Shown here: positions 1 through 63,769 of the stretch, one piece after another
Position numbering within the stretch: position 1 is the first letter of the stretch
Layout of the letters: each line of letters starts with the position of its first letter
NCBI RefSeq assembly: GCF_024713975.1
Contig: NC_091107.1
Span: 14,435,501-14,499,500, forward strand
DNA length: 64,000 nucleotides
Origin: Paralichthys olivaceus
Taxonomy: Eukaryota; Chordata; Actinopteri; Pleuronectiformes; Paralichthyidae
Reading direction: 5' to 3'
Position numbers and translations under genes: made by a program
The notes under the pieces: model-generated
Told to the model about the DNA's origin: nothing
Database searches by the model: none
Seen by the model: only the letters and a program-made list of their open reading frames with translations

Positions 1-577
1 GTAAAATGGTAACGTATAACATTTCAACTAAGCTTGAACCAGCTCATTTTGTTATGAAATGCTTTCTTTTTGGAATTGAACTTAAAATCTTAGAAAACCC
101 AATGAACTTCAATGAATCTAACTTTTCTTGAAACAATGCAACACACTGTTACATTCTGAAAGGGCAAAAACACAGTTACTAGTCCAACTATAAATTAAAA
201 ATCTGTCTGTCTATCTGTCCTTAAACTCAAAAGGTGGGACATGCAATTAACCTTAAGTCATGCAAGTAGGGGTTAGGTTACTTTGTGAAAAGTATGTTTT
301 CACTTCCTTCTTGTTAGGGACCCAAAATGATGGTCTGCTTCTGTCAAACATGTTTCATATGAACCACAAATCCCATTTGGAAGCAAACATGAGTGAAAAC
401 AAAGTACTTTGAGTCAAGACAGAAATGTAGATGTTTTTACTTCATATATAAAAGATGATGGGATGCCAATAAAATAGTGGCAGATTTGTAGTTTTAGTTG
501 AAAGTAAAATGATCTTCTGATGAATCATACAACTTTAAGTAAAAGAATACAAACAAGAAAAGTTGTTCAATGTAATG

Positions 578-583
578 TTTTAT
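578..583 (-). terminator. Poly(A) signal of defensin copy 1
   Basis: AATAAA on the minus strand, about 120 bp past the stop codon of the defensin. It recurs at the same offset in all units. The equivalent signal sits in homologous sequence downstream of the diverged defensin (40158-40163). Confidence 0.6.
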
Positions 584-702
584 TCAACCATTGGAGCTGC
601 ATTCAAATCAGCAACACGTCAGCCAAAGCAAATCCTCCACAACGATGTCTTCTGTCTGTCCCATCATCTGTGATGCTTGGCAAGTCTTGTATCTTGGCTG
701 AA

Positions 703-1135
703 TTATGGTTTGGTTATGCAACATACAGTTCTGAAAAAGAAACAATACATACTTTAATTCCACCGGCAAATAAATAGACAATATTTACTCACATGCTGCA
801 TCTAAGCATCTGAACTTACGAACTCTCTGCGGAACAGCCGAGAGCTCCAATAGAGAATTCTGTTGAGAGGCAACTGTCTTTACAGACTCCCTGTATGGTG
901 GAGCAATCCAACTTAGGTCGGTCTGGCTTAGGTTGGTCTGCTTCATTCTCTGCAACTGAAAACAAAGAGAAACGTTATGTATGTTTTTGTTCAAATCCTT
1001 TCGTTGTCAATTAAAAAAAATAACTGTAAAAATGTGCAGATATGAGCTGCAAAAACATGCAGAGATGTATCAATACTCACCAAAAACAAGCAAGACAACG
1101 ACCAGCGCCAAAACAGCCACACGATAACGAGACAT
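703..1135 (-). CDS. Beta-defensin, tandem copy 1 (3 exons)
   Basis: A secreted host-defence peptide gene, read from the minus strand as exon 1 1081-1135, exon 2 820-955 and exon 3 703-730. Introns are GT-AG (donors GTGAGT and GTAAGT; acceptors follow TTTTCAG and TTTTTCAG) with phases 1 and 2. The product is 72 residues. Residues 1-18 plus V-A form a hydrophobic signal peptide beginning MSRYRVAV. An acidic/proline prosegment follows, with the five-residue motif D-[QR]-P-K-x twice. Six cysteines lie at 36, 43, 47, 59, 67 and 68 (C-X6-C-X3-C-X11-C-X7-CC), which is the beta-defensin pattern. The GVC, CL-TE, G-LGC and CC landmarks match the canonical teleost defensin at 40374-41299. A TATA-like box lies at 1195-1202 and a poly(A) signal at 578-583. 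Unusually, the mature part is net acidic (about -2). Splicing is inferred from sequence, not from transcripts. Confidence 0.9.
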
Positions 1136-1194
1136 TGTTGGGTCTGAAACTGCGTCTTTCTCCAAAACGATGTTTAGACCCAGGATGGTTTGTC

Positions 1195-1232
1195 TTATTT
1201 ATCTGCTCACCTCTGAGGAGGGGAGGAGTGAA
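1195..1232 (-). promoter_or_regulatory. Putative defensin core promoter (unit 1)
   Basis: On the minus strand an AT-rich TATA-like element, ATAAATAA (1195-1202), lies about 60 bp upstream of the start codon. Just above it is a pyrimidine-rich block, TTCACTCCTCCCCTC (1218-1232). All 15 bases of that block also occur upstream of the diverged defensin (41364-41378), although the surrounding sequence has drifted, which suggests functional constraint. The same arrangement recurs in every unit at this offset. No specific transcription factor is assigned. Confidence 0.5.
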
Positions 1233-2370
1233 ATAGGAGATATAGGAGGAAATGGGTTGGTCTCTAATTTATTTTCAGCAGTTAGTATAATTCATATTTC
1301 AAGCTGGTTCTCCTGGGGCTGTGTTTGTCAACTACCTGATGATGGAAAATTGGAGGTTTGCCTGTCCAAACCTGCCTCTTGGTTTTAAATCTATCTAGCG
1401 ATTGTGTATTTCAAATCAAACGTTTTTGTTGAAATATTGCAATGTTCTTCAATTCTCAAAGTATATGTGTATAGTCTACCACAGAGATGATAGAAGACAT
1501 TTCATTCAGTTTTACTTTACATGCAAGGACAATTTCTTCACTTTACTTTTGCCTCTCAGTGTTGAAGAAAACATGGTATTTGAGCAACAAAGAAAATAAT
1601 AAACCAAGACTGGACTTGTGTCAGAACCAAAAACTACATTCACAAGGCCCTACAGAAATAGGGTTTTCAGGACCAGAAGTGTTTATGCTTAAGGACATTT
1701 CATCTCATATCCAAGACATTCAAGAAAGGTGAAACTTTGTCAAGTATCTACAACCAAGTCCAGTTGTCATCGCTGGAACCAGTTTTGGATAAACGTGACC
1801 TAGATAACTAAGAATCTTCACAGACGACTATGTCAACCTGCCCTGAGCATATAGAAATATACGTTTTAGGTTCATTAACTATCTGTTTACCTTTCAAAAA
1901 GCCCCTCCCCTCACCAAAATCCAACAGAGTTTTATAATAGCAGTGGAAGATGTCATTCTGTGTATTAATATGATAATGACATATTGAATATTTACCATGG
2001 GAACAGGGTCAAACTCGACCCACCACGTTTGAAGTCAATTTGGATGAGCAGCTTTCCAGAAGATTCCATGACAGACAGATGGTGTTTCTGCCATGTCATT
2101 GTCTTTTTTAGTCGGTTCAAAATGTGCCTGTTGGTTTGTGTGGCATTATTTCAAAAGAAATCCATAAGATTTTTAAAAGACATTTTGTGTACAATTAGCA
2201 TGTTACACCACGACAACACGTTCAAACATCGTGGACCTCGAAATAAAATGACAATCATTGCATCTGATGGGAACATTTTGTGACGTTGGCATGATGCGAT
2301 GGTGTCAATAGAAGCGGATGGTGTATTGATGTGTAGCCATTAAGTGGCGCGACACCACCAAAACTCCCTT

Positions 2371-2577
2371 TCACTTACATAAATACATATTCTCACCAAA
2401 GGTGCCAATGATTGATCCCTGTGGGACACCACAAGTCAGGGGGACCCCAGAAGATGAGGCATTACCCATAACTATTACGACAGTTCTGCATGATGAATCA
2501 GATTTAAATGAGTCCAGAGCATTTTACCTGACGCCAACCCACTTTTCAAGAAGATCTAGTAGGATAGACTGATCCAT
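2371..2577 (-). pseudogene. LINE reverse-transcriptase fragment (unit 1)
   Basis: Read on the minus strand, one frame gives LLDLLEKWVGV, then an in-frame stop, then a stretch with SSSGVPLTCGVPQGSIIGT. The GVPQGS-x-[LI]-G motif and its flanks are characteristic of the reverse transcriptase of fish non-LTR retrotransposons of the L2/Rex1 type. The catalytic YADD segment is absent, so this is a dead fragment of about 70 codons. It sits 1.2-1.4 kb upstream of the defensin of its unit. The same piece recurs in each unit, for example at 4987-5193, 12973-13179, 15589-15795 and 39118-39298 (cut short), so it was amplified with the unit rather than inserted repeatedly. Confidence 0.75.
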
Positions 2578-3318
2578 GGGTATCAGAATGGAGCTCTGGG
2601 TATGCTTTTTTGTATCGTAAAATGGTAACGTATAACATTTCAACTAAGCTTGAACCAGCTCATTTTGTTATGAAATGCTTTCTTTTTGGAATTGAACTTA
2701 AAATCTTAGAAAACCCAATGAACTTCAATGAATCTAACTTTTCTTGAAACAATGCAACACACTGTTACATTCTGAAAGGGCAAAAACACAGTTACTAGTC
2801 CAACTATAAATTAAAAATCTGTCTGTCTATCTGTCCTTAAACTCAAAAGGTGGGACATGCAATTAACCTTAAGTCATGCAAGTAGGGGTTAGGTTACTTT
2901 GTGAAAAGTATGTTTTCACTTCCTTCTTGTTAGGGACCCAAAATGATGGTCTGCTTCTGTCAAACATGTTTCATATGAACCACAAATCCCATTTGGAAGC
3001 AAACATGAGTGAAAACAAAGTACTTTGAGTCAAGACAGAAATGTAGATGTTTTTACTTCATATATAAAAGATGATGGGATGCCAATAAAATAGTGGCAGA
3101 TTTGTAGTTTTAGTTGAAAGTAAAATGATCTTCTGATGAATCATACAACTTTAAGTAAAAGAATACAAACAAGAAAAGTTGTTCAATGTAATGTTTTATT
3201 CAACCATTGGAGCTGCATTCAAATCAGCAACACGTCAGCCAAAGCAAATCCTCCACAACGATGTCTTCTGTCTGTCCCATCATCTGTGATGCTTGGCAAG
3301 TCTTGTATCTTGGCTGAA

Positions 3319-3751
3319 TTATGGTTTGGTTATGCAACATACAGTTCTGAAAAAGAAACAATACATACTTTAATTCCACCGGCAAATAAATAGACAATAT
3401 TTACTCACATGCTGCATCTAAGCATCTGAACTTACGAACTCTCTGCGGAACAGCCGAGAGCTCCAATAGAGAATTCTGTTGAGAGGCAACTGTCTTTACA
3501 GACTCCCTGTATGGTGGAGCAATCCAACTTAGGTCGGTCTGGCTTAGGTTGGTCTGCTTCATTCTCTGCAACTGAAAACAAAGAGAAACGTTATGTATGT
3601 TTTTGTTCAAATCCTTTCGTTGTCAATTAAAAAAAATAACTGTAAAAATGTGCAGATATGAGCTGCAAAAACATGCAGAGATGTATCAATACTCACCAAA
3701 AACAAGCAAGACAACGACCAGCGCCAAAACAGCCACACGATAACGAGACAT
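3319..3751 (-). CDS. Beta-defensin, tandem copy 2
   Basis: Exons at 3697-3751, 3436-3571 and 3319-3346. Exons, splice sites and the predicted 72-residue product are the same as in copy 1. Units 1 and 2 share noncoding variants not seen in units 3-13 (for example in the 3' flank near 3054 and 3087), so they form their own subclass. Confidence 0.88.
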
Positions 3752-5934
3752 TGTTGGGTCTGAAACTGCGTCTTTCTCCAAAACGATGTTTAGACCCAGG
3801 ATGGTTTGTCTTATTTATCTGCTCACCTCTGAGGAGGGGAGGAGTGAAATAGGAGATATAGGAGGAAATGGGTTGGTCTCTAATTTATTTTCAGCAGTTA
3901 GTATAATTCATATTTCAAGCTGGTTCTCCTGGGGCTGTGTTTGTCAACTACCTGATGATGGAAAATTGGAGGTTTGCCTGTCCAAACCTGCCTCTTGGTT
4001 TTAAATCTATCTAGCGATTGTGTATTTCAAATCAAACGTTTTTGTTGAAATATTGCAATGTTCTTCAATTCTCAAAGTATATGTGTATAGTCTACCACAG
4101 AGATGATAGAAGACATTTCATTCAGTTTTACTTTACATGCAAGGACAATTTCTTCACTTTACTTTTGCCTCTCAGTGTTGAAGAAAACATGGTATTTGAG
4201 CAACAAAGAAAATAATAAACCAAGACTGGACTTGTGTCAGAACCAAAAACTACATTCACAAGGCCCTACAGAAATAGGGTTTTCAGGACCAGAAGTGTTT
4301 ATGCTTAAGGACATTTCATCTCATATCCAAGACATTCAAGAAAGGTGAAACTTTGTCAAGTATCTACAACCAAGTCCAGTTGTCATCGCTGGAACCAGTT
4401 TTGGATAAACGTGACCTAGATAACTAAGAATCTTCACAGACGACTATGTCAACCTGCCCTGAGCATATAGAAATATACGTTTTAGGTTCATTAACTATCT
4501 GTTTACCTTTCAAAAAGCCCCTCCCCTCACCAAAATCCAACAGAGTTTTATAATAGCAGTGGAAGATGTCATTCTGTGTATTAATATGATAATGACATAT
4601 TGAATATTTACCATGGGAACAGGGTCAAACTCGACCCACCACGTTTGAAGTCAATTTGGATGAGCAGCTTTCCAGAAGATTCCATGACAGACAGATGGTG
4701 TTTCTGCCATGTCATTGTCTTTTTTAGTCGGTTCAAAATGTGCCTGTTGGTTTGTGTGGCATTATTTCAAAAGAAATCCATAAGATTTTTAAAAGACATT
4801 TTGTGTACAATTAGCATGTTACACCACGACAACACGTTCAAACATCGTGGACCTCGAAATAAAATGACAATCATTGCATCTGATGGGAACATTTTGTGAC
4901 GTTGGCATGATGCGATGGTGTCAATAGAAGCGGATGGTGTATTGATGTGTAGCCATTAAGTGGCGCGACACCACCAAAACTCCCTTTCACTTACATAAAT
5001 ACATATTCTCACCAAAGGTGCCAATGATTGATCCCTGTGGGACACCACAAGTCAGGGGGACCCCAGAAGATGAGGCATTACCCATAACTATTACGACAGT
5101 TCTGCATGATGAATCAGATTTAAATGAGTCCAGAGCATTTTACCTGACGCCAACCCACTTTTCAAGAAGATCTAGTAGGATAGACTGATCCATGGGTATC
5201 AGAATGGAGCTCTGGGTATGCTTTTTTGTATCGTAAAATGGTAACGTATAACATTTCAACTAAGCTTGAACCAGCTCATTTTGTTATGAAATGCTTTCTT
5301 TTTGGAATTGAACTTAAAATCTTAGAAAACCCAATGAACTTCAATGAATCTAACTTTTCTTGAAACAATGCAACACACTGTTACATTCTGAAAGGGCAAA
5401 AACACAGTTACTAGTCCAACTATAAATTAAAAATCTGTCTGTCTATCTGTCCTTAAACTCAAAAGGTGGGACATGCAATTAACCTTAAGTCATGCAAGTA
5501 GGGGTTAGGTTACTTTGTGAAAAGTATGTTTTCACTTCCTTCTTGTTAGGGACCCAAAATGATGGTCTGCTTCTGTCAAACATGTTTCATATGAACCACA
5601 AATCCCATTTGGAAGCAAACATGAGTGAAAACAAAGTACTTTGAGTCAAGACAGAAATGTAGATGTTTTCACTTCATATATAAAAGATGATGGGATGCCA
5701 ATCAAATAGTGGCAGATTTGTAGTTTTAGTTGAAAGTAAAATGATCTTCTGATGAATCATACAACTTTAAGTAAAAGAATACAAACAAGAAAAGTTGTTC
5801 AATGTAATGTTTTATTCAACCATTGGAGCTGCATTCAAATCAGCAACACGTCAGCCAAAGCAAATCCTCCACAACGATGTCTTCTGTCTGTCCCATCATC
5901 TGTGATGCTTGGCAAGTCTTGTATCTTGGCTGAA

Positions 5935-6367
5935 TTATGGTTTGGTTATGCAACATACAGTTCTGAAAAAGAAACAATACATACTTTAATTCCACCGGCA
6001 AATAAATAGACAATATTTACTCACATGCTGCATCTAAGCATCTGAACTTACGAACTCTCTGCAGAACAGCCAAGAGCTCCAATAGAGAATTCTGTTGAGA
6101 GGCAACTGTCTTTACAGACTCCCTGTATGGTGGAGCAATCCAACTTAGGTCGGTCTGGCTTAGGTTGGTCTGCTTCATTCTCTGCAACTGAAAACAAAGA
6201 GAAACGTTATGTATGTTTTTGTTCAAATCCTTTCGTTGTCAATTAAAAAAAATAACTGTAAAAATGTGCAGATATGAGCTGCAAAAACATGCAGAGATGT
6301 ATCAATACTCACCAAAAACAAGCAAGACAACGACCAGCGCCAAAACAGCCACACGATAACGAGACAT
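5935..6367 (-). CDS. Beta-defensin, tandem copy 3 (retroelement upstream)
   Basis: Exons at 6313-6367, 6052-6187 and 5935-5962. The 72-residue product is identical to copy 1. Two synonymous third-base changes lie around the fourth cysteine (LGCS codons), shared with copies 4 and 12. This copy is intact, but a 5.4-kb Gypsy element is inserted about 380 bp upstream of its start codon, in the opposite orientation. The proximal promoter (TATA-like box and conserved block, about 6427-6464) is kept, while anything further upstream is now displaced by 5.4 kb. Confidence 0.88.
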
Positions 6368-6739
6368 TGTTGGGTCTGAAACTGCGTCTTTCTCCAAAAC
6401 GATGTTTAGACCCAGGATGGTTTGTCTTATTTATCTGCTCACCTCTGAGGAGGGGAGGAGTGAAATAGGAGATATAGGAGGAAATGGGTTGGTCTCTAAT
6501 TTATTTTCAGCAGTTAGTATAATTCATATTTCAAGCTGGTTCTCCTGGGGCTGTGTTTGTCAACTACCTGATGATGGAAAATTGGAGGTTTGCCTGTCCA
6601 AACCTGCCTCTTGGTTTTAAATCTATCTAGCGATTGTGTATTTCAAATCAAACGTTTTTGTTGAAATATTGCAATGTTCTTCAATTCTCAAAGTATATGT
6701 GTATAGTCTACCACAGAGATGATAGAAGACATTTCATTC

Positions 6740-6745
6740 AGTTTT
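6740..6745. repeat. Left target-site duplication
   Basis: AGTTTT directly before the 5' LTR. It is repeated at 12110-12115 directly after the 3' LTR and present once at the matching site of the uninterrupted units. Confidence 0.85.
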
Positions 6746-7222
6746 TGTGATGATTCTGTTGGTGTTTTGTTGTGGTGTCTCTCCCTCTCCCCTTTTCTGT
6801 TTTTTCTCAGCGCAGGTTGTGTGTGTGGCAAGGGGGCGTGGCTGGTTCCTGGCTGCAGCGACGAGGCGCACCTGATCTCTATCACCTCATCATCCCCTCA
6901 ATAAAAGCCTGGTCCTGACTCCACTCCTGTGCCAGATTATTCCGTCCCGTCCGGTATCTTCATGTGCTATCGATGTCCTCGACTCCCGTGTTCGTTTTCA
7001 TGGATTTTCACTAACCCTCGTATCTCCTTCCTTCCACCCAGCCTTTCCGTGCGCCTCGCTGCTCCTCCATTCATCCTCGTCTCACCCTGGATCTTCGAGC
7101 CAGCCTGCACCCTGCCACCCCAGCCTGCTCCTGTTTTGTGTTCGTATAAATAAACTCTGTTAAACCGCAAAACCTCCTGTCCGCGTCTGCTTTGGGGTCC
7201 AACTCAAGAACTAAGCCTAACA
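6746..7222 (+). repeat. 5' LTR of the chromovirus
   Basis: 477 bp, TGTGATG...CTAACA, matching 11633-12109. It contains an AATAAA-type signal near 6899 and a TATA-like GTATAAATAA near 7144. No convincing primer-binding site was identified directly behind it. Confidence 0.95.
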
Positions 7223-7239
7223 GAATAATCTGGCCAAAA

Positions 7240-8316
7240 ATGGACCCCGCGGATGCGGAAAAATTCAGACTGGCTCTCTCGTCCCAAGGAACTCGTGTTG
7301 GGCAGCACGAGAGAGCCCTGAACGAGGTTATGGAGACTCTACAGAACCTTACCTCCAACGTGGCACTGATCGGTGGCCGCATGGAACAGCTCACTACTCA
7401 CCTCTCCACGCTGACGACTCCGGCGCTCGCTCCCGCTCCAGCTCCAGTTCCAGCATCTCCACCAGCAGCTTCTCCGGTCACTCTTCCCACACAGCCCCGG
7501 GAACCATTCATCCCCACACCCGCCAGGTTTGCAGGGCAGTTAGGCTCAGGTAGACAATTCCTCCATCAGTGCAGCCTCGTATTCGATCAGCAGCCGTTAA
7601 CATACTCCACAGACAAGTCGCGGATTGCCTTCGTCATGAGTTTATTGTCGGAGAGAGCCGCGGCTTGGGCTGTTGCCATTTCCCACAGTAATTCGCCGAT
7701 TTGTTTTTCTTTTTCCTCTTTTACCGAGGAATTCCTAAAAGTTTTTGATCACCCTCTGCGTAGTAAGGAGGCCAGTAGCCGGCTCCTTTCTCTTTGTCAG
7801 GGAGAGAAATCCGTGGCGGACCACTCGATCGACTTCCGCATTCTAGCTATCGATAGCGGCTGGGACGAGCGAGCGCTTCAAGGGGTTTTTCTCCGGGGAT
7901 TAAGGGACGAGCTGAGGGATGAGCTGGCCGCTCGTGACGAGACGACCTCTCTAGACGATTTGATCTCGCTTGCTATACGTCTAGATAATCGTCTCCGCGA
8001 GCGGCGCAGGGAGAGATCAGGTAGGGCGAGCCATACCCCTCCCGTGATGCGGACAAGGAGCCCTCACCATCGGGGGCTTGCGCCCTCTCCGCTGCCACCG
8101 TCCTCCTCCGACAGGATTCCTCCTGGTTCTACACCTGCTCTCCTCGACATCGAGGAACCAATGCACCTGGGGAGGACGAAACTCACACCTACGGAGCGTC
8201 AACGTCGCCATCTCCGTGGACTCTGCCTTTACTGTGGCCTGGACGGTCATCGGATTACACTCTGCCCATCTCGGCCAAAAGGGGGGGCTCACCAGCCACA
8301 AGAGGAGCACTGGTGA
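7240..8316 (+). CDS. Gag polyprotein of the chromovirus
   Basis: The retrotransposon capsid protein, about 358 residues from the ATG at 7240 (product begins MDPADAEKF). This ATG is preferred because the one further upstream at 7192 lies inside the LTR. An N-terminal helical part is followed by a proline/alanine-rich linker and a capsid-like region (roughly residues 95-255) typical of Gypsy gag in fish. A CCHC zinc knuckle, C-X2-C-X4-H-X4-C, lies near residues 329-342 and binds the element's RNA. The frame ends at TGA 8314-8316, overlapping pol in the -1 frame. A run of four A and seven G at 8277-8287 is a candidate slip site. The frame shows no breaks. Confidence 0.93.
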
Positions 8317-11300
8317 GCCATTCTGCTGTTGTTTCGTCTCCTCCTCGCCTGACTCTGCAAGGTACTGTGTCTTGGGATCAGACCTCCCTTCCGTTGTCTA
8401 TTTTAGTTGATTCTGGGGCAGATGACAATTTTATTGACTCCGAACTGGTTACCCAGTCTAAAATTCCCTCTCAGCTCCTGCCGCAGCCTAAGAGGGTGTT
8501 CGCCCTGGATGGTAGACTCCTAGCTAAGGTTACTCATCGCACTATTCCCATTTCCCTTCAGCTCTCCGGAAATCATCACGAAGCAATATCTTTTTACGTT
8601 ATCCCATCTCCTGTTTCCCCAGTAGTTTTAGGTCTCCCTTGGTTAAAACTTCACAATCCTCACATTGACTGGTCCTCCTCCTCCATCACTAATTGGAGTT
8701 TGTTTTGTCATTCCCACTGCCTACACTCCGCCGTTCCTTCCACTCTGACTACCGCACCTTCTCCACCCACGCCGGTGGATCTCAGTTTTGTTCCGGCAGA
8801 ATATCATCACCTCCAGGAAGTATTCAGTAAGGAGTTAGCAGTAGCTCTTCCTCCCCATAGACCTTATGACTGCAGTATTGATCTGCTACCTGGCGCCCCC
8901 TTTCCTTCCAGCAAAATGTATAATTTATCTAGACCGGAGAGAGAGGCCATGGAGACCTATATCACAGACTCATTGGCTACAGGACTTATTCGTCCTTCTT
9001 CTTCACCATTGGGGGCAGGGTTTTTTTTTGTGGAGAAGAAGGACAAATCACTTCGCCCGTGCATTGATTTTAGGGGCCTCAATGATATCACGGTTAAGAA
9101 CAAGTATCCCCTCCCACTCATTGACTCAGCCTTCGGTCCCCTGCACAAGGCCACTATATTCTCCAAGTTGGACCTTCGCAACGCTTACCACTTAGTGAGA
9201 ATTAGAGAGGGGGACGAGTGGAAGACGGGGTTTAACACTCCCCTGGGACACTTTGAGTATTTGGTCATGCCTTTCGGCCTCACTAATGCCCCTGCCGTTT
9301 TTCAGACTCTCATAAATGATGTGTTGAGAGATATGCTTAACAGTTTTGTGTTTGTTTACCTTGATGACATTCTGATTTTCTCACGTTCTACCCAGGAGCA
9401 TATTCAACATGTGAACATTGTACTGAAAAGACTCCTGGAAAACAGACTATATGTCAAAGCGGAGAAATGTATTTTTCATGTGTCCTCTGTGAGCTTCTTG
9501 GGATTTATTGTGGAGAAAGGGCAAATCAAGACCGACCCTGCCAAGGTTAAGGCAGTGGCCGAATGGCCCACTCCTACATCAAGGAAGCAACTACAGAGAT
9601 TTCTCGGGTTTGCCAATTTTTATCGTAGGTTTATCCGAGACTACAGCCGAGTTGCTACACCCCTCACCAGGCTCACATCGGTTAAGGTTCCTTTTGTATG
9701 GTCACAGGCAGCCGAGGTGGCGTTCTCCAGACTCAAAGTACTATTTTCCTCTGCTCCTGTATTAATTCACCCGGATCCTGCTCTCCAGTTCATTGTGGAG
9801 GTGGATGCTTCCGACTCCGGGGTGGGGGCCGTGCTCTCTCAGCGCACTACCTCGGACCTGAAGCAGCACCCTTGTGCCTTTTTCTCCCGCCAGCTTTCCC
9901 CAGCGGAAAAAAACTATGATGTGGGGAACCGGGAGCTGTTGGCGGTCGTCCTGGCCCTGCAGGAATGGAGGCACTGGCTTGAGGGTTCTACTCACCCGTT
10001 TATTGTTTGGTCCGACCACAAGAACCTGTCATACCTGCGCACTGCCCGCAGGCTCAACTCGCGCCAGGCTCGGTGGGCGTTGTTCCTCGGGCGGTTCGAC
10101 TTCACCCTTACCTACCGTCCGGGGTCGAGGAACATAAAGCCCGATGCTCTGTCACGTCAGTTTGCCCCTCCGGTGGAGGACACGTCTGGGAGCACCATAC
10201 TGCCATCTTCCTGTGTGGTGGGAGCAGCAGGATGGGAGATTGAAGGTGTGGTCCAGGGGGCCCAGAGGGATCAGCCTGTCCCAGAAGGATGTCCACCAAA
10301 CAGGTTGTTTGTTCCCCCGTCTGTCAGATCTCCAGTCCTTCAGTGGGGACATTCGTCCCAGATCTCCTGTCATCCTGGATGTCGCCGTACCCTGAACCTG
10401 CTGCAGCAACGCTTCTGGTGGCCCTCCATGGCGACAGATACCAAGGCGTTTGTCGCCGCCTGTTCTGTCTGCGCCCGGAGCAAGGCGTCTCATCAGGCTC
10501 CTGCGGGATTGCTGCGCCCCCTGCCCATCCCTCACCGCCCTTGGTCGCATATAGCGGTGGACTTTATCACAGGTCTACCCCCCTCTGGAGGGAACACTGT
10601 CATCCTGACCGTGGTGGACCGCTTTTCCAAATCAGCTCATTTTATTCCGCTCTCGAAGCTTCCATCCGCCCTCGAGACCGCCAACCTACTGGTCACCCAT
10701 GTGTTCCGGATACATGGCATCCCCGTGGACATCGTGTCGGACAGGGGGCCACAGTTCTCAGCCAGGACCTGGAAGGCGTTTTGCCAGGCGTTGGGGGCAT
10801 CGGCCAGCCTATCGTCTGGATACCATCCACAGACCAACGGCCAGACAGAACGGGCCAACCAGGATCTGGGGGCGGCCCTGCGCTGTGTGACAGCACAACA
10901 CCCGGCTTCCTGGGCCATCCACCTTCCCTGGGTTGAATATGCCCACAACTCCCTGGTCTGCTCTGCCACAGGGATGTCTCCCTTCATGGCTGCCAATGGC
11001 TTCCAGCCTCCACTCTTCCCAGCCCAGGAGACTGACGTGGCGGTTCCATCCGTCCAGGCACACCTCCGACGTGCTCGTCGGGTCTGGCGCGAGGCTCGGG
11101 CAGCACTCATCCGCACCACCGCCCGCAATCAGCGATTGGCCGATCGACATCGCACCCCTGCTCCTGTGTACCTGCCAGGTCAAAAGGTCTGGTTGTCGTC
11201 GCGGGATCTACCCCTCCAGACGGAGTCCCGAAAGCTGACCCCCAGGTACATTGGACCGTATGAGGTCGATCGGGTCATTAACCCATGTGTAGTGAGACTC

Positions 11301-11621
11301 AAGCTTCCCCCTTCATTAAGGATCCACCCTGCTTTCCACGTCTCTCTCCTCAAGCCAGTGTCCTCTAGCCCTCTAAGCCCTCCGGCCGAGCCCCCTCCAC
11401 CCACCCTGGTAATAGACAACCATCCGGCCTACACGGTAAGGGCGGTTTTGGATGTACGTCGGCGAGGGCGGGGCTACCAATATCTGGTGGATTGGGTGGG
11501 TTATGGGCCAGAGGAACGTCAATGGGTTTCCCGGTCTTTTATTCTTGACCCCACTATCCTCACTGACTTTTACTCTCGTTTCCCGGACAAGCCTGGTAGA
11601 CCGCCAAGAGGCGGTTCTTGA
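8313..11621 (+). CDS. Pol polyprotein of the chromovirus
   Basis: About 1,102 codons in the -1 frame relative to gag. There is no ATG at the junction and the frame is open upstream of the gag stop, so it is probably made by ribosomal frameshifting. Domains in order: aspartic protease with DSGADD at 33-38; reverse transcriptase with YLDD at 349-352; RNase H with its first catalytic Asp near 498; integrase with an H2C2-type zinc region and catalytic D750, D810 and E846 (D-X59-D-X35-E); and a C-terminal chromodomain around 1025-1080 (YLVDWVGYG), which in this family steers integration to certain chromatin. All the catalytic residues listed are present and the frame is uninterrupted, so the element may be competent. 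It ends directly before the polypurine tract. Confidence 0.95.
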
Positions 11622-11632
11622 GGGGGGGGTAC

Positions 11633-12109
11633 TGTGATGATTCTGTTGGTGTTTTGTTGTGGTGTCTCTCCCTCTCCCCTTTTCTGTTTTTTCTCAGCGC
11701 AGGTTGTGTGTGTGGCAAGGGGGCGTGGCTGGTTCCTGGCTGCAGCGACGAGGCGCACCTGATCTCTATCACCTCATCATCCCCTCAATAAAAGCCTGGT
11801 CCTGACTCCACTCCTGTGCCAGATTATTCCGTCCCGTCCGGTATCTTCATGTGCTATCGATGTCCTCGACTCCCGTGTTCGTTTTCATGGATTTTCACTA
11901 ACCCTCGTATCTCCTTCCTTCCACCCAGCCTTTCCGTGCGCCTCGCTGCTCCTCCATTCATCCTCGTCTCACCCTGGATCTTCGAGCCAGCCTGCACCCT
12001 GCCACCCCAGCCTGCTCCTGTTTTGTGTTCGTATAAATAAACTCTGTTAAACCGCAAAACCTCCTGTCCGCGTCTGCTTTGGGGTCCAACTCAAGAACTA
12101 AGCCTAACA
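11633..12109 (+). repeat. 3' LTR of the chromovirus
   Basis: 477 bp, the same length as the 5' LTR and with no difference I can see. It is preceded by a polypurine tract (11620-11629) and followed by the duplicated AGTTTT, after which the array unit resumes exactly where it was broken. Confidence 0.95.
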
Positions 12110-13920: not shown

Positions 13921-14353
13921 TTATGGTTTGGTTATGCAACATACAGTTCTGAAAAAGAAACAATACATACTTTAATTCCACCGGCAAATAAATAGACAAT
14001 ATTTACTCACATGCTGCATCTAAGCATCTGAACTTACGAACTCTCTGCAGAACAGCCAAGAGCTCCAATAGAGAATTCTGTTGAGAGGCAACTGTCTTTA
14101 CAGACTCCCTGTATGGTGGAGCAATCCAACTTAGGTCGGTCTGGCTTAGGTTGGTCTGCTTCATTCTCTGCAACTGAAAACAAAGAGAAACGTTATGTAT
14201 GTTTTTGTTCAAATCCTTTCGTTGTCAATTAAAAAAAATAACTGTAAAAATGTGCAGATATGAGCTGCAAAAACATGCAGAGATGTATCAATACTCACCA
14301 AAAACAAGCAAGACAACGACCAGCGCCAAAACAGCCACACGATAACGAGACAT
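13921..14353 (-). CDS. Beta-defensin, tandem copy 4
   Basis: Exons at 14299-14353, 14038-14173 and 13921-13948. The product is identical to copy 1. It carries the same two synonymous changes near the fourth cysteine as copies 3 and 12. The unit is otherwise of the majority subclass (units 3-11). Confidence 0.88.
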
Positions 14354-30049: not shown

Positions 30050-32232
30050 TGTTGGGTCTGAAACTGCGTCTTTCTCCAAAACGATGTTTAGACCCAGGAT
30101 GGTTTGTCTTATTTATCTGCTCACCTCTGAGGAGGGGAGGAGTGAAATAGGAGATATAGGAGGAAATGGGTTGGTCTCTAATTTATTTTCAGCAGTTAGT
30201 ATAATTCATATTTCAAGCTGGTTCTCCTGGGGCTGTGTTTGTCAACTACCTGATGATGGAAAATTGGAGGTTTGCCTGTCCAAACCTGCCTCTTGGTTTT
30301 AAATCTATCTAGCGATTGTGTATTTCAAATCAAACGTTTTTGTTGAAATATTGCAATGTTCTTCAATTCTCAAAGTATATGTGTATAGTCTACCACAGAG
30401 ATGATAGAAGACATTTCATTCAGTTTTACTTTACATGCAAGGACAATTTCTTCACTTTACTTTTGCCTCTCAGTGTTGAAGAAAACATGGTATTTGAGCA
30501 ACAAAGAAAATAATAAACCAAGACTGGACTTGTGTCAGAACCAAAAACTACATTCACAAGGCCCTACAGAAATAGGGTTTTCAGGACCAGAAGTGTTTAT
30601 GCTTAAGGACATTTCATCTCATATCCAAGACATTCAAGAAAGGTGAAACTTTGTCAAGTATCTACAACCAAGTCCAGTTGTCATCGCTGGAACCAGTTTT
30701 GGATAAACGTGACCTAGATAACTAAGAATCTTCACAGACGACTATGTCAACCTGCCCTGAGCATATAGAAATATACGTTTTAGGTTCATTAACTATCTGT
30801 TTACCTTTCAAAAAGCCCCTCCCCTCACCAGAATCCAACAGAGTTTTATAGTAGCAGTGGAAGATGTCATTCTGTGTATTAATATGATAATGACATATTG
30901 AATATTTACCATGGGAACAGGGTCAAACTCGACCCACCACGTTTGAAGTCAATTTGGATGAGCAGCTTTCCAGAAGATTCCATGACAGACAGATGGTGTT
31001 TCTGCCATGTCATTGTCTTTTTTAGTCATTTCAAAATGTGCCTGTTGGTTTGTGTGGCATTATTTCAAAAGAAATCCATAAGATTTTTAAAAGACATTTT
31101 GTGTACAATTAGCATGTTACACCACGACAACACGTTCAAACATCGTGGACCTCGAAATAAAATGACAATCATTGCATCTGATGGGAACATTTTGTGACGT
31201 TGGCATGATGCGATGGTGTCAATAGAAGCGGATGGTGTATTGATGTGTAGCCATTAAGTGGCGCGACACCACCAAAACTCCCTTTCACTTACATAAATAC
31301 ATATTCTCACCAAAGGTGCCAATGATTGATCCCTGTGGGACACCACAAGTCAGGGGGACCCCAGAAGATGAGGCATTACCCATAACTATTACGACAGTTC
31401 TGCATGATGAATCAGATTTAAATGAGTCCAGAGCATTTTACCTGACGCCAACCCACTTTTCAAGAAGATCTAGTAGGATAGACTGATCCATGGGTATCAG
31501 AATGGAGCTCTGGGTATGCTTTTTTGTATCGTAAAATGGTAACGTATAACATTTCAACTAAGCTTGAACCAGCTCATTTTGTTATGAAATGCTTTCTTTT
31601 TGGAATTGAACTTAAAATCTTAGAAAACCCAATGAACTTCAATGAATCTAACTTTTCTTGAAACAATGCAACACACTGTTACATTCTGAAAGGGCAAAAA
31701 CACAGTTACTAGTCCAACTATAAATTAAAAATCTGTCTGTCTATCTGTCCTTAAACTCAAAAGGTGGGACATGCAATTAACCTTAAGTCATGCAAGTAGG
31801 GGTTAGGTTACTTTGTGAAAAGTATGTTTTCACTTCCTTCTTGTTAGGGACCCAAAATGATGGTCTGCTTCTGTCAAACATGTTTCATATGAACCACAAA
31901 TCCCATTTGGAAGCAAACATGAGTGAAAACAAAGTACTTTGAGTCAAGACAGAAATGTAGATGTTTTCACTTCATATATAAAAGATGATGGGATGCCAAT
32001 CAAATAGTGGCAGATTTGTAGTTTTAGTTGAAAGTAAAATGATCTTCTGATGAATCATACAACTTTAAGTAAAAGAATACAAACAAGAAAAGTTGTTCAA
32101 TGTAATGTTTTATTCAACCATTGGAGCTGCATTCAAATCAGCAACACGTCAGCCAAAGCAAATCCTCCACAACGATGTCTTTTGTCTGTCCCATCATCTG
32201 TGATGCTTGGCAAGTCTTGTATCTTGGCTGAA

Positions 32233-32665
32233 TTATGGTTTGGTTATGCAACATACAGTTCTGAAAAAGAAACAATACATACTTTAATTCCACCGGCAAA
32301 TAAATAGACAATATTTACTCACATGCTGCATCTAAGCATCTGAACTTACGAACTCTCTGCGGAACAGCCGAGAGCTCCAATAGAGAATTCTGTTGAGAGG
32401 CAACTGTCTTTACAGACTCCCTGTATGGTGGAGCAATCCAACTTAGGTCGGTCTGGCTTAGGTTGGTCTGCTTCATTCTCTGCAACTGAAAACAAAGAGA
32501 AACGTTATGTATGTTTTTGTTCAAATCCTTTCGTTGTCAATTAAAAAAAATAACTGTAAAAATGTGCAGATATGAGCTGCAAAAACATGCAGAGATGTAT
32601 CAATACTCACCAAAAACAAGCAAGACAACGACCAGCGCCAAAACAGCCACACGATAACGAGACAT
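32233..32665 (-). CDS. Beta-defensin, tandem copy 11
   Basis: Exons at 32611-32665, 32350-32485 and 32233-32260. The product is identical to copy 1. It shares the private 3' untranslated variant of copy 10 (near 32182). Confidence 0.88.
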
Positions 32666-34848
32666 TGTTGGGTCTGAAACTGCGTCTTTCTCCAAAACGA
32701 TGTTTAGACCCAGGATGGTTTGTCTTATTTATCTGCTCACCTCTGAGGAGGGGAGGAGTGAAATAGGAGATATAGGAGGAAATGGGTTGGTCTCTAATTT
32801 ATTTTCAGCAGTTAGTATAATTCATATTTCAAGCTGGTTCTCCTGGGGCTGTGTTTGTCAACTACCTGATGATGGAAAATTGGAGGTTTGCCTGTCCAAA
32901 CCTGCCTCTTGGTTTTAAATCTATCTAGCGATTGTGTATTTCAAATCAAACGTTTTTGTTGAAATATTGCAATGTTCTTCAATTCTCAAAGTATATGTGT
33001 ATAGTCTACCACAGAGATGATAGAAGACATTTCATTCAGTTTTACTTTACATGCAAGGACAATTTCTTCACTTTACTTTTGCCTCTCAGTGTTGAAGAAA
33101 ACATGGTATTTGAGCAACAAAGAAAATAATAAACCAAGACTGGACTTGTGTCAGAACCAAAAACTACATTCACAAGGCCCTACAGAAATAGGGTTTTCAG
33201 GACCAGAAGTGTTTATGCTTAAGGACATTTCATCTCATATCCAAGACATTCAAGAAAGGTGAAACTTTGTCAAGTATCTACAACCAAGTCCAGTTGTCAT
33301 CGCTGGAACCAGTTTTGGATAAACGTGACCTAGATAACTAAGAATCTTCACAGACGACTATGTCAACCTGCCCTGAGCATATAGAAATATACGTTTTAGG
33401 TTCATTAACTATCTGTTTACCTTTCAAAAAGCCCCTCCCCTCACCAGAATCCAACAGAGTTTTATAGTAGCAGTGGAAGATGTCATTCTGTGTATTAATA
33501 TGATAATGACATATTGAATATTTACCATGGGAACAGGGTCAAACTCGACCCACCACGTTTGAAGTCAATTTGGATGAGCAGCTTTCCAGAAGATTCCATG
33601 ACAGACAGATGGTGTTTCTGCCATGTCATTGTCTTTTTTAGTCATTTCAAAATGTGCCTGTTGGTTTGTGTGGCATTATTTCAAAAGAAATCCATAAGAT
33701 TTTTAAAAGACATTTTGTGTACAATTAGCATGTTACACCACGACAACACGTTCAAACATCGTGGACCTCGAAATAAAATGACAATCATTGCATCTGATGG
33801 GAACATTTTGTGACGTTGGCATGATGCGATGGTGTCAATAGAAGCGGATGGTGTATTGATGTGTAGCCATTAAGTGGCGCGACACCACCAAAACTCCCTT
33901 TCACTTACATAAATACATATTCTCACCAAAGGTGCCAATGATTGATCCCTGTGGGACACCACAAGTCAGGGGGACCCCAGAAGATGAGGCATTACCCATA
34001 ACTATTACGACAGTTCTGCATGATGAATCAGATTTAAATGAGTCCAGAGCATTTTACCTGACGCCAACCCACTTTTCAAGAAGATCTAGTAGGATAGACT
34101 GATCCATGGGTATCAGAATGGAGCTCTGGGTATGCTTTTTTGTATCGTAAAATGGTAACGTATAACATTTCAACTAAGCTTGAACCAGCTCATTTTGTTA
34201 TGAAATGCTTTCTTTTTGGAATTGAACTTAAAATCTTAGAAAACCCAATGAACTTCAATGAATCTAACTTTTCTTGAAACAATGCAACACACTGTTACAT
34301 TCTGAAAGGGCAAAAACACAGTTACTAGTCCAACTATAAATTAAAAATCTGTCTGTCTATCTGTCCTTAAACTCAAAAGGTGGGACATGCAATTAACCTT
34401 AAGTCATGCAAGTAGGGGTTAGGTTACTTTGTGAAAAGTATGTTTTCACTTCCTTCTTGTTAGGGACCCAAAATGATGGTCTGCTTCTGTCAAACATGTT
34501 TCATATGAACCACAAATCCCATTTGGAAGCAAACATGAGTGAAAACAAAGTACTTTGAGTCAAGACAGAAATGTAGATGTTTTCACTTCATATATAAAAG
34601 ATGATGGGATGCCAATCAAATAGTGGCAGATTTGTAGTTTTAGTTGAAAGTAAAATGATCTTCTGATGAATCATACAACTTTAAGTAAAAGAATACAAAC
34701 AAGAAAAGTTGTTCAATGTAATGTTTTATTCAACCATTGGAGCTGCATTCAAATCAGCAACACGTCAGCCAAAGCAAATCCTCCACAACGATGTCTTCTG
34801 TCTGTCCCATCATCTGTGATGCTTGGCAAGTCTTGTATCTTGGCTGAA

Positions 34849-35297
34849 TTATGGTTTGGTTACGCAACATACAGTTCTGAAAAAGAAACAATACATACTT
34901 TAATTCCACCGGCAAATAAATAGACAATATTTACTCACATGCTGCATCTAAGCATCTGAACTTACGAACTCTCTGCAGAACAGCCAAGAGCTCCAATAGA
35001 GAATTCTGTTGAGAGGCAACTGTCTTTACAGACTCCCTGTATGGTGGAGCAATCTGCCTTAGGTCGGTCTGGCTTAGGTCGGTCTGCCTTAGGTCGATCT
35101 GCTTCATTCTCTGCAACTGAAAACAAAGAGAAACGTTATGTATGTTTTTGTTCAAATCCTTTCGTTGTCAATTAAAAAAAAATAACTGTAAAAATGTGCA
35201 GATATGAGCTGCAAAAACATGCAGAGATGTATCAATACTCACCAAAAACAAGCAAGACAACGACCAGCGCCAAAACAGCCACACGATAACGAGACAT
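34849..35297 (-). CDS. Beta-defensin, tandem copy 12 (long prosegment)
   Basis: Exons at 35243-35297, 34966-35116 and 34849-34876. The product is 77 residues. Exon 2 is 15 bp longer than in copies 1-11, giving three instead of two D-[QR]-P-K-x units in the prosegment, with several substitutions there (for example DRPKA). An Ile-to-Val change lies just after the final CC pair. All six cysteines and splice sites are kept. It shares the two synonymous changes of copies 3 and 4. Its unit is among the more diverged, near the right edge of the array. Confidence 0.88.
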
Positions 35298-37469
35298 TGT
35301 TGGGTCTGAAACTGCGTCTTTCTCCAAAACGATGTTTAGACCCAGGATGGTTTGTCTTATTTATCTGCTCACCTCTGAGGAGGGGAGGAGTGAAATAGGA
35401 GATATAGGAGGAAATGGGTTGGTCTCTAATTTATTTTCAGCAGTTAGTATAATTCATATTTCAAGCTGGTTCTCCTGGGGCTGTGTTTGTCAACTACCTG
35501 ATGATGGAAAATTGGAGGTTTGCCTGTCCAAACCTGCCTCTTGGTTTTAAATCTATCTAGCGTTTTTGTATTTCAAATCAAACGTTTTTGTTGAAATATT
35601 GCAATGTTCTTCAATTCTCAAAGTATATGTGTATAGTCTACCACAGAGATGATAGAAGACATTTCATTCAGTTTTACTTTACATGCAAGGACAATTTCTT
35701 CACTTTACTTTTGCCTCTCAGTGTTGAAGAAAACATGGTATTTGAGCAACAAAGAAAATGATAAACCAAGACTGGACTTGTGTCAGAACCAAAAACTACA
35801 TTCACAAGGCCCTACAGAAATAGGGTTTTCAGGACCAGAAGTGTTTATGCTTAAGGACATTTCATCTCATATCCAAGACATTCAAGAAAGGTGAAACTTT
35901 GTCGAGTATCTACAACCAAGTCCAGTTGCCATCGCTGGAGCCAGTTAACGTGACCTAGATAACTGAGAATCTTCACAGACGACTATGTCAACCTGCCCTG
36001 AGCATATAGAAATATACGTTTTAGGTTCATTAACTATGTGTTAACCTTTCAAAAAGCCCCTCCCCTCACCAGAATCCAACAGAGTTTTATAATAGCAGTG
36101 GAAGATGTCATTCTGTGTAATAATATGATAACGACATATTGAATATTTACCATGGGAACAGGGTCAAACTCGACCCACCACGTTTGAAGTCAATTTGGAT
36201 GAGCAGCTTTCCAGAAGATTCCATGACAGATGGTGTTTCTGCCATGTCATTGTCTTTTTTAGTCAGTTCAAAATGTGCCTGTTGGTTTGTGTGGCATTAT
36301 TTCAAAAGAAATCCATAAGATTTTTAAAAGACATTTTGTGTACAATTAGCATGTTACACCACGACAACACGTTCAAACATCGTGGACCTCGAAATAAAAT
36401 GACAATCATTGCATCTGATGGGAACATTTTGTGATGTTGGCATGATGCGATGGTGTCAGTAGAAGCGGATGGTGTATTGATGTGTAGCCATTAAGTGGCG
36501 CGACACCACCAAAACTCCCTTTCACTTACATAAATACATATTCTCACCAAAGGTGCCAATGATTGATCCCTGTGGGACACCACAAGTCAGGGGGACCCCA
36601 GAAGATGAGGCATTACCCATAACTATTACGACAGTTCTGCATGATGAATCAGATTTAAATGAGTCCAGAGCATTTTACCTGACGCCAACCCACTTTTCAA
36701 GAAGATCTAGTAGGATAGACTGATCCATGGGTATCAGAATGGAGCTCTGGGTATGCTTTTTTGTATCGTAAAATGGTAACGTATAACATTTCAACTAAGC
36801 TTGAACCAGCTCATTTTGTTATGAAATGCTTTCTTTTTGGAATTGAACTTAAAATCTTAGAAAACCCAATGAACTTCAATGAATCTAACTTTTCTTGAAA
36901 CAATGCAACACACTGTTACATTCTGAAAGGGCAAAAACACAGTTACTAGTCCAACTATAAATTAAAAATCTGTCTGTCTATCTGTCCTTAAACTCAAAAG
37001 GTGGGACATGCAATTAACCTTAAGTCATGCAAGTAGGGGTTAGGTTACTTTGTGAAAAGTATGTTTTCACTTCCTTCTTGTTAGGGACCCAAAATGATGG
37101 TCTGCTTCTGTCAAACATGTTTCATATGAACCACAAATCCCATTTGGAAGCAAACATGAGTGAAAACAAAGTACTTTGAGTCAAGACAGAAATGTAGATG
37201 TTTTCACTTCATATATAAAAGATGATGGGATGCCAATCAAATAGTGGCAGATTTGTAGTTTTAGTTGAAAGTAAAATGATCTTCTGATGAATCATACAAC
37301 TTTAAGTAAAAGAATACAAACAAGAAAAGTTGTTCAATGTAATGTTTTATTCAACCATTGGAGCTGCATTCAAATCAGCAACACGTCAGCCAAAGCAAAT
37401 CCTCCACAACGATGTCTTCTGTCTGTCCCATCATCTGTGATGCTTGGCAAGTCTTGTATCTTGGCTGAA

Positions 37470-37887
37470 TTATGGTTTGGTTATGCAACATACAGTTCTG
37501 AAAAAGAAACAATACATACTTTAATTCCACCGGCAAATAAATAGACAATATTTACTCACATGCTGCATCTAAGCATCTGAACTTACGAACTCTCTGCGGA
37601 ACAGCCGAGAGCTCCAATAGAGAATTCTGTTGAGAGGCAACTGTCTTTACAGACTCCCTGTATGGTGGAGCAATCCAACTTAGGTTGGTCTGCTTCATTC
37701 TCTGCAACTGAAAACAAAGAGAAACGTTATGTATGTTTTTGTTCAAATCCTTTCGTTGTCAATTAAAAAAAATAACTGTAAAAATGTGCAGATATGAGCT
37801 GCAAAAACATGCAGAGATGTATCAATACTCACCAAAAACAAGCAAGACAACGACCAGCGCCAAAACAGCCACACGATAACGAGACAT
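37470..37887 (-). CDS. Beta-defensin, tandem copy 13 (short prosegment)
   Basis: Exons at 37833-37887, 37587-37707 and 37470-37497. The product is 67 residues. Exon 2 is 15 bp shorter than in copies 1-11, so only one D-Q-P-K-L unit separates the signal-peptide region from the first cysteine. The mature six-cysteine part is identical to copy 1. One G is missing in the 5' untranslated region next to the start codon (near 37892), which does not touch the frame. This is the last regular unit of the array. Confidence 0.88.
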
Positions 37888-40157
37888 TGTTGGTCTGAAA
37901 CTGCGTCTTTCTCCAAAACGATGTTTAGACCCAGGATGGTTTGTCTTATTTATCTGCTCACCTCTGAGGAGGGGAGGAGTGAAATAGGAGATATAGGAGG
38001 AAATGGGTTGGTCTCTAATTTATTTTCAGCAGTTAGTATAATTCATATTTCAAGCTGGTTCTCCTGGGGCTGTGTTTGTCAACTACCTGATGATGGAAAA
38101 TTGGAGGTTTGCCTGTCCAAACCTGCCTCTTGGTTTTAAATCTATCTAGCGATTGTGTATTTCAAATCAAACGTTTTTGTTGAAATATTGCAATGTTCTT
38201 CAATTCTCAAAGTATATGTGTATAGTCTACCACAGAGATGATAGAAGACATTTCATTCAGTTTTACTTTACATGCAAGGACAATTTCTTCACTTTACTTT
38301 TGCCTCTCAGTGTTGAAGAAAACATGGTATTTGAGCAACAAAGAAAATAATAAACCAAGACTGGACTTGTGTCAGAACCAAAAACTACATTCACAAGGCC
38401 CTACAGAAATAGGGTTTTCAGGACCAGAAGTGTTTATGCTTAAGGACATTTCATCTCATATCCAAGACATTCAAGAAAGGTGAAACTTTGTCAAGTATCT
38501 ACAACCAAGTCCAGTTGCCATCGCTGGAGCCAGTTAACGTGACCTAGATAACTGAGAATCTTCACAGACGACTATGTCAACCTGCCCTGAGCATATAGAA
38601 ATATACGTTTTAGGTTCATTAACTATGTGTTAACCTTTCAAAAAGCCCCTCCCCTCACCAGAATCCAACTGACAGAGTTTTATAGTAGCAGTGGAAGATG
38701 TCATTCTGTGTAATAATATGATAATGACATATTGAATATTTACCATGGGAACAGGGTCAAACTCGACCCACCACGTTTGAAGTCAATTTGGATGAGCAGC
38801 TGTCCAGAAGATTCCATGACAGACAGATGGTGTTTCTGCCATGTCATTGTCTTTTTTAGTCAGTTCAAAATGTGCCTGTTGGTTTGTGTGGCATTATTTC
38901 AAAAGAAATCCATAAGATTTTTAAAAGACATTTTGTGTACAATTAGCATGTTACACCACGACAACACGTTCAGACATCGTGGACCTCGAAATAAAATGAC
39001 AATCATTGCATCTGATGGGAACATTTTGTGACGTTGGCATGATGCGATGGTGTCTATAGAGGCGGACAGTGTATTGATGTTGTCCATTAAGTGGCGCGAC
39101 ACCACCAAAACTCCCTTTCACTTACATAAATACATATTCTCACCAAAGGTGCCAATGATTGATCCCTGTGGGACACCACAAGTCAGGGGGACCCCAGAAG
39201 ATGAGGCATTACCCATAACTATTACGACAGTTCTGCATGATGAATCAGATTTAAATGAGTCCACAGCATTTTACCTGATGCCAGCCCACTTTTCAAGGAG
39301 CCCCTCCCATCACCCTTCTCCCTTCACAGCTACTGGTCTCATACGTGGAATCCAACTGACAGTTGGTAATATAGTGCCAATGGAACATTTTAATCTCTTT
39401 ATGAATATGATAACTGTACTGATTATTTACCATGGGAACAGGGTAAAACTTACAAATTGTCTCGTTCTGTCTCTGTCTCTCTGTTTTTATATTTTCTCAA
39501 TAACCGACCATTCTACCGACTTCAAATTTGGTAGGTGTGTTGCTGAGGATCCTGGGGAAGGTTATTGTTGACTGTGAAGTATTCTTACATAAATGCAGGG
39601 TTAGGGTTAAAGGTTGGGGTTTCCAGAAGCACTCGGCTGCACCTCCAAGGGTCCTCAGCTTCATTGACCCCTGAGGTTTGAAGTCAACATGATGAGCAGT
39701 TGTATCAGCATCAGCAATTCCTCCATTTCAGTATATTGTTTTCACCTTTTCAATATGTCCGTGGTGGTGTGTGGAATTTTCCTAAATAAATCTACTATCT
39801 TTAGTTTATTAGGTTGTTATGTGTGTAAGTTTTATAACGAGGGTGGCCTCGATAAATAAATATGGCATGTCAAGAGGAAATTAGCTGGTTTGAACTTGGC
39901 TAAAATACGATGAGGTCAAAATTTGAAAATACAAAGAAGCATAATCAAAGCTCCCATAATAACCATGATCTAGATACAATGCAAGCAAATGATTTAATGA
40001 TTTAAGTTTGGGTGTGAGTCAGTGAAATTGATCAGAGGCTATGAGATATCAACCAAGCAGTGTCAGAGCTATAGATTAAGATACCAGTCAAACTACATTT
40101 TGACAAATAGTCCAAAGTTACATGAAAAAATTGTTACAAAGATGTTTGATGTAACGT

Positions 40158-56078: not shown

Positions 56079-63769
<7,691 letters not shown>

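Follow-up and report, generated by a model that had tools for sequence, protein, structure and literature searches.

The acidic beta-defensin genes of olive flounder form a tandem array in a larger beta-defensin cluster

Five beta-defensins are given for the olive flounder, Paralichthys olivaceus (PMC4690011), and seven for salmon (PMC8231796). The olive flounder is the named exception to the cationic nature of beta-defensins (PMC8231796, PMC3978493), its peptides constitute an independent branch within type 1, with D2WPC8 and D2WPC9 listed as flounder beta-defensins 1 and 2 (PMC11541337), and the species is set apart from other flatfish (PMC8231796). Basic pro-regions, for which isoelectric points (pI) of 8.75 and 8.59 are given, are reported to neutralise the acidic mature part (PMC8116387), and a form of 77 amino acids (aa), cloned from head kidney as a cDNA and termed a new spliced isoform, is described as having antibacterial activity, effects on chemotaxis and phagocytosis, and a location on extracellular traps (PMC8698591). 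Here we describe a 64,000-nucleotide stretch of the olive flounder genome (C15:14435501-14499500 in a 588-Mb, 25-contig assembly), referred to below as the window, whose left part is a tandem array of genes for this acidic flounder beta-defensin (fBDI). We consider it very likely that this is a type-1 beta-defensin locus of the species, composed of a classical gene (DB1), 16 fBDI units and two diverged genes (A and B), with a homogenised centre and drifting edges, and that it would provide a secreted antibacterial and chemotactic peptide at a dosage set by the number of copies.

Self-comparison and self-BLAST confirm a period of 2,616 bp across the left part of the window, each period holding a spliced minus-strand gene, as a preliminary description of this DNA had proposed. 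The components of the array are as follows.

1..39297: tandem array of 13 units, each about 2,616 bp, with a long terminal repeat (LTR) element splitting unit 3 and three further units outside the window to the left (from self-BLAST, unit alignment and the left flank)
703..1135, minus strand: array gene of unit 1; exons 1081-1135, 820-955 and 703-730; 72 aa, the P. olivaceus beta-defensin I-3
3319..3751, minus strand: array gene of unit 2; 72 aa
5935..6367, minus strand: array gene of unit 3; 72 aa; upstream of the gene, this unit also holds the LTR element
13921..14353, minus strand: array gene of unit 4; 72 aa
16537..16969, minus strand: array gene of unit 5; 72 aa
19153..19585, minus strand: array gene of unit 6; 72 aa
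21769..22201, minus strand: array gene of unit 7; 72 aa
24385..24817, minus strand: array gene of unit 8; 72 aa
27001..27433, minus strand: array gene of unit 9; 72 aa
29617..30049, minus strand: array gene of unit 10; 72 aa
32233..32665, minus strand: array gene of unit 11; 72 aa
34849..35297, minus strand: array gene of unit 12; exons 35243-35297, 34966-35116 and 34849-34876; 77 aa, with three 5-aa propiece repeats
37470..37887, minus strand: array gene of unit 13, at the array end; exons 37833-37887, 37587-37707 and 37470-37497; 67 aa, with one 5-aa propiece repeat
35053..35102, minus strand: 15-bp in-frame repeat coding for the propiece, in exon 2; unit 12 has the longest version in the window, and copy number differs between units

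The three-exon gene is intact in all 13 window units, with the ATG, the splice sites searched, six cysteines after the signal peptide and the stop codon retained throughout, as had been claimed. Other parts of the preliminary description need adjusting. Exons of 55, 136 and 28 bp encoding one and the same 72-aa precursor are present in 11 of the 13 units, but exon 2 is 151 bp long in unit 12 and 121 bp in unit 13; similarly, the picture of 13 near-identical genes in 39 kb is accurate for units 1-11, which show 0-8 differences, but not for units 12 and 13, which differ from these at 18-24 aligned bases and by small indels. All 13 units lie in the span first given, 1..39298, except that it ends at 39,297, where the last unit stops after 2,550 of its 2,616 bases, and that it is interrupted at 6746-12109 within unit 3. 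The array was also expected to run past the left edge of the window, and three more units are indeed present there in the assembly, starting near contig position 14,427,735; the leftmost is partial, but all three genes are intact, encoding from left to right peptides of 77, 72 and 77 aa that are each one residue off the nearest known fBDI product. The array thus totals 16 units and genes, with precursors of 72 aa in 12, 77 aa in three and 67 aa in one.

These three lengths derive from the copy number of the 15-bp repeat in exon 2, in a precursor whose signal peptide is followed by one, two or three copies of a 5-residue propiece repeat and then by the six-cysteine domain. In the window every unit comes with a 5′ region and a poly(A) signal of its own, with AATAAA about 120 bp past the stop codon in 13 of 13, and the 300 bp upstream of the gene are identical across units 1-11; the 200 mismatches seen upstream of unit 13 in an ungapped comparison reflect a single deleted base when the alignment is gapped. 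In a simple scan for motifs, the 500 bp upstream of unit 1 and of DB1 gave no NF-kB or TATA match.

The peptide is already known, and the array is therefore not hidden in the sense of being new. The 72-aa product is 100% identical over its full length to P. olivaceus beta-defensin I-3 (UniProt D2WPD0), the 67-aa product of unit 13 is identical to beta-defensin I-1 (D2WPC8), and the 77-aa product of unit 12 matches a P. olivaceus entry (A0A977TNT3) letter for letter; the protein search with the array peptide returned three matches with E of 1 or less, out of 11 candidates. A new peptide family is ruled out by this identity. The proposal of a secreted six-cysteine beta-defensin is well founded, resting on these named entries, on six cysteines that are invariant in 23 of 23 rows aligned with fish type-1 beta-defensins (23 of 39 proteins fetched), and on the adjoining classical gene, which is alike in structure. 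The cysteine order C..C..C..C..CC with a signal peptide upstream, the latter called by likeness, is common to the 13 window array genes, the three left units, A, B and DB1, and three exons and two introns with the cysteines across exons 2 and 3 are the layout of fish beta-defensins. Sequence searches of the PDB gave only weak matches, to alpha-defensin 6 for the array peptide (E 1.9) and to helianthamide (E 0.094) and crotamine (E 0.96) for DB1, and NCBIfam gave no match.

The mature part of the array peptide has a computed pI of 4.32, in agreement with the published figure, and a charge of -2.3, as compared with 8.35 and +1.8 for DB1, so that the array peptides lack the cationic mature part of typical beta-defensins. 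Between Cys4 and Cys5 they carry SAESSTV rather than the CPRRYK-like motif found there in fish type-2/3 beta-defensins (PMC8231796). In a 27-row tree without a type-2 outgroup (26 of 52 fetched proteins, picked for spread among relatives found with DB1 and array queries, plus DB1 and without A and B) the flounder array peptides are one branch (100/100) with a length of 1.24 changes per column and a placement without resolution, and DB1 groups with Pleuronectes platessa on weak support (83/84). We conclude that the array genes encode the known acidic flounder beta-defensin, and that the scale and anatomy of the locus appear to be undescribed in the literature searched. Citing papers reportedly trace the peptide to Nam et al. 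2010.

A fourteenth defensin gene in the window, missed in the preliminary description, is located about 2.5 kb from the last array gene.

40374..41299, minus strand: DB1, a classical fish type-1 beta-defensin; exons 41245-41299, 40499-40619 and 40374-40398; 66 aa; 92% identical to P. platessa; PF13841 above the cut-off

The DB1 exons measure 55, 121 and 25 bp, as do those of sea bass DB1 (PMC8231796), and its closest protein match is the 92% identical one from P. platessa, with no P. olivaceus among the names shown for 36 matches, which represent 90% clusters. To the left of the array there are two diverged but intact genes, A (67 aa, C15:14422954-14423365) and B (63 aa, C15:14417976-14418380), both having six cysteines and GT-AG splice junctions; a tblastn search of 40 kb leftward with the array and DB1 peptides found no further match at E < 0.1 beyond the left units, A and B. 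Although both share signal-peptide words with the array query, neither A nor B was among its three protein matches, and since no other P. olivaceus name was shown they seem to be absent from the protein database searched. The cluster therefore comprises 19 beta-defensin genes (16 in the array, A, B and DB1) on one strand over 59 kb, from C15:14417976 to about 14476799, and all 19 are intact. The view that this is a striking expansion is upheld, with 16 array copies and 19 cluster genes exceeding the counts given for olive flounder (PMC4690011) and salmon (PMC8231796). Just beyond the array end, positions 39378-39450 resemble unit positions 1941-2015 at 80%, and perhaps mark an older duplication edge between the array and DB1.

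Divergence among the array units is unevenly distributed. The core units 1-11 differ pairwise by 0-8 of about 2,616 bases, and in aligned bases units 1 and 2, units 3 and 4 (outside the insertion), units 5 through 9, and units 10 and 11 are identical; pairs that include an edge unit (three on the left, two on the right) differ by 19-46 bases in a 16-unit alignment and by 18-26 in a 13-unit alignment, and nine sequence classes can be told apart among the 16 units. Unequal crossing-over gives just such a pattern, in which neighbouring units are identical, the centre is homogeneous and both ends have diverged. Among 15 informative two-state columns all four gametes are present in 22 of 105 pairs, and on this evidence the units have probably exchanged sequence; the other reading of such pairs is repeated mutation. 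The core differences, the diverged ends and the four-gamete pairs together agree with the original suggestion of recent amplification or ongoing homogenisation. A single unit is interrupted by a mobile element.

6746..12109, plus strand: Ty3-type LTR retrotransposon in unit 3; LTRs 6746-7222 and 11633-12109

This element is 5.36 kb long, its 477-bp LTRs show 0 of 477 differences, AGTTTT is present on both sides, and parts of its frames match gag (Ty3 capsid), protease, reverse transcriptase, RNase H, integrase and chromo domains. It inserted into unit 3 after that unit last became identical to unit 4.

The diverged genes A and B invite a comparison of rates among gene parts. Between unit 1 and A there are 18 differences in 300 upstream positions, 1/55 in exon 1, 1/125 in intron 1, 35/121 in exon 2, 11/81 in intron 2, 8/28 in exon 3 and 15/149 in the 3′ flank. 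Nonsynonymous divergence (dN) in the mature region is 0.516 and synonymous divergence (dS) 0.220, with 37.7 nonsynonymous differences in 101 sites versus 26 in 230 for intron 2 and the 3′ flank together (Fisher p = 7.7e-8). The mature nonsynonymous excess over intron 2 alone gives p = 2.0e-4, and for unit 1 against B and A against B the corresponding values are 0.027 and 2.4e-4; these are seven tests in all, on rounded counts and non-independent pairs. The comparison suggests that the mature region of A may be under diversifying selection. In the comparisons with B the 3′ flank is itself as diverged (55/131 from unit 1 and 65/131 from A), an argument against selection in that case, and between unit 1 and A the 5′ half has likely undergone gene conversion. 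For an array gene against DB1 the mature region gives dN 0.660 and dS 0.750.

The account that we favour is that unequal crossing-over and gene conversion would keep the central units nearly identical, and that units at the edges, A and B most of all, would drift away, the mature part of A faster than its intron 2 and 3′ flank. Going by published work on the flounder peptide, the product would be secreted or released on extracellular traps, and may inhibit bacteria and attract leukocytes; many copies could raise peptide output, and the basic propiece, until cleaved away, could mask the acidic mature part. A more tentative extension, which we regard as possible but hold with some doubt, is a defensin factory of two speeds, in which identical central genes would serve output, the escapees A and B at the edge would diversify under positive selection, and the 15-bp repeat would tune propiece length and charge. 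If so, individual fish would differ in copy number, with possible consequences for disease resistance in a farmed species.

A number of results weigh against these interpretations. Searching for a match to beta-defensin profiles had been proposed as a check, and the outcome is divided: the array peptides score 21.2-21.7 bits with PF13841 (E ~3e-4), just under the cut-off of 22.2, and DB1 is just over it at 22.6, with B at 18.8 and A at 10.8. For a spliced transcript, another of the proposed checks, the published cDNA of a 77-aa form (PMC8698591) gives indirect support. As to the three-stranded beta-sheet fold of beta-defensins, the AlphaFold model is weak (predicted local distance difference test, pLDDT, 72; predicted template modelling score, pTM, 0.38), and the defensins that it matches reach a Z of no more than 3.2, which is low. 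The link to the published 77-aa peptide is imperfect, as a pI of 4.8 and 13.25 kDa are printed for it (PMC8698591) and unit 12 computes to 7.55 and 8.2 kDa, and as the outer reverse primer of that study has two mismatches in all 13 window units. With regard to selection, the mature nonsynonymous excess between unit 1 and A over synonymous sites only has p = 0.038, the same contrast is not significant between unit 1 and B (0.39) or A and B (0.28), and gene conversion could explain why unit 1 and A differ so little in exon 1 and intron 1, a complication for the neutral yardstick.

It is conceivable that the copy number is a product of the assembly, one or a few real units having been duplicated by the assembler. 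Units 5-9 are identical over 2,616 bp, and for that reason their exact number is not checkable from the sequence; moreover, the array itself is missing from the matches of a whole-genome DNA search (10 of 12 candidates scored), which therefore neither supplies an independent count nor excludes copies elsewhere. We nonetheless regard such an artefact as quite improbable, given the nine sequence classes among 16 units, the private 5.4-kb insertion in one of them, the different diverged units at the two ends, which run into unlike flanks within a 24.35-Mb contig, the lack of any N in the window or in 40 kb to its left, and the five beta-defensins already in print for the species (PMC4690011). The copies could also be real and yet mostly passengers, recently amplified by repeat recombination only, silent or redundant, and with no role in dosage. 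The large insertion that sits upstream of the gene in one unit would fit this, and intact frames in units 1-11 say little about selection because the units are near-identical. However, the genes of the edge units are intact too, as are A and B with their greater divergence, making 19 of 19 genes, the peptides of units 12 and 13 are database proteins of P. olivaceus, and a cDNA of unit-12 length has been cloned from head kidney (PMC8698591), so we think it rather unlikely that most copies are idle.

The length variants raise a further alternative, namely that they are splice isoforms of a single gene, in keeping with the wording used for the 77-aa cDNA (PMC8698591). Yet the extra 15 bp are contiguous inside exon 2 of separate genomic copies, and the 77-aa database entry is the product of unit 12 letter for letter. 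The primers of that study are also informative: the outer forward primer is exact in 12 of 13 window units, unit 13 having a deletion there, the inner forward primer matches in 13 of 13, and the inner reverse primer is exact in unit 12 alone among the 13 and has one mismatch in the other 12. In the left units the inner reverse primer is exact in two, one of them a 77-aa copy, and has one mismatch in the third, and the outer reverse primer has one or two mismatches. Taken with the identical peptides, the primer matches point to olive flounder or a very close relative as the source of the window. Some caution is warranted since the printed pI and mass do not fit unit 12, but alternative splicing of one gene seems to us scarcely credible, and because a 15-bp coding repeat makes all three lengths, the 77-aa form published as a splice isoform more probably stems from a gene copy of its own. 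Of the two published propiece pI values, the computed propieces reproduce only 8.59 (PMC8116387).

Several other features of the window are not part of the defensin genes. Positions 1724-1904 are a short dispersed repeat, with six of ten genome matches to the unit covering only that part, on contigs 3, 9, 11, 14 and 15. Each full unit contains a decayed minus-strand frame at about 2340-2600, and the array stops at unit position 2550, inside it. From its motif we take this frame to resemble a reverse-transcriptase remnant of a long interspersed nuclear element, although it has no Pfam match. Beside the defensin cluster, the plus strand carries two intact olfactory-receptor genes of a single exon each, at 45313-46281 and 50925-51866 (Pfam 7tm_4, E 1e-45 and 2e-42), which share 45% identity. 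Exon-like frames at 59064-63348 on the minus strand perhaps belong to one multi-exon gene; the one at 63127-63348 holds the first part of a PH domain, for which IPCEF1 is the top match by sequence in the PDB (E 1.7e-12), and the three other frames have no Pfam match. This is presumably a CNK/IPCEF1-type gene. Degenerate telomere-like CCCTAA repeats occur at 62013-62088, internal to the contig, and no RNA genes or tRNAs were found in the window, with 0 Rfam matches at gathering and 0 by ARAGORN run with the bacterial code.

A peptide of five 'isoforms' thus becomes a mapped multigene array, with its length forms explained as gene copies and a classical DB1 kept next door. In comparisons of fish defensins, fBDI entries have served as the flounder sequences (PMC11541337, PMC8231796), so that those comparisons may involve a paralogue. 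With few beta-defensins said to occur in fish, so large an array opens the dosage, copy-number variation and concerted evolution of a fish immune gene to testing in a farmed species.

The closest described system is fBDI itself, which has the same amino-acid sequences as all three window products, a length of 67-77 aa, a propiece of 5-15 aa and an acidic mature part (PMC8231796, PMC3978493); it is known as five isoforms or genes, whereas here there are 16 tandem genes in one assembly, together with the structure of the unit, the array edges, a retrotransposon insertion and the neighbouring genes. Fish type-1 DB1 has three exons, six cysteines and a similar signal in common with the array genes, which differ in their acidic mature part, repeat propiece and seven rather than five residues between Cys4 and Cys5. 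No statement of a tandem array of comparable size was found in the parts of the open-licence literature covered by our search. The mammalian copy-number-variable clusters (human 8p23.1, cattle and pig) are likewise beta-defensin genes amplified in repeats, but the human block has six genes (PMC3263423) and the flounder unit is 2.6 kb with one. Fish hepcidin expansions, for which up to eight or nine copies are cited, similarly arose by local duplication of small antimicrobial-peptide genes, although in a different peptide family and with fewer copies than the flounder array.

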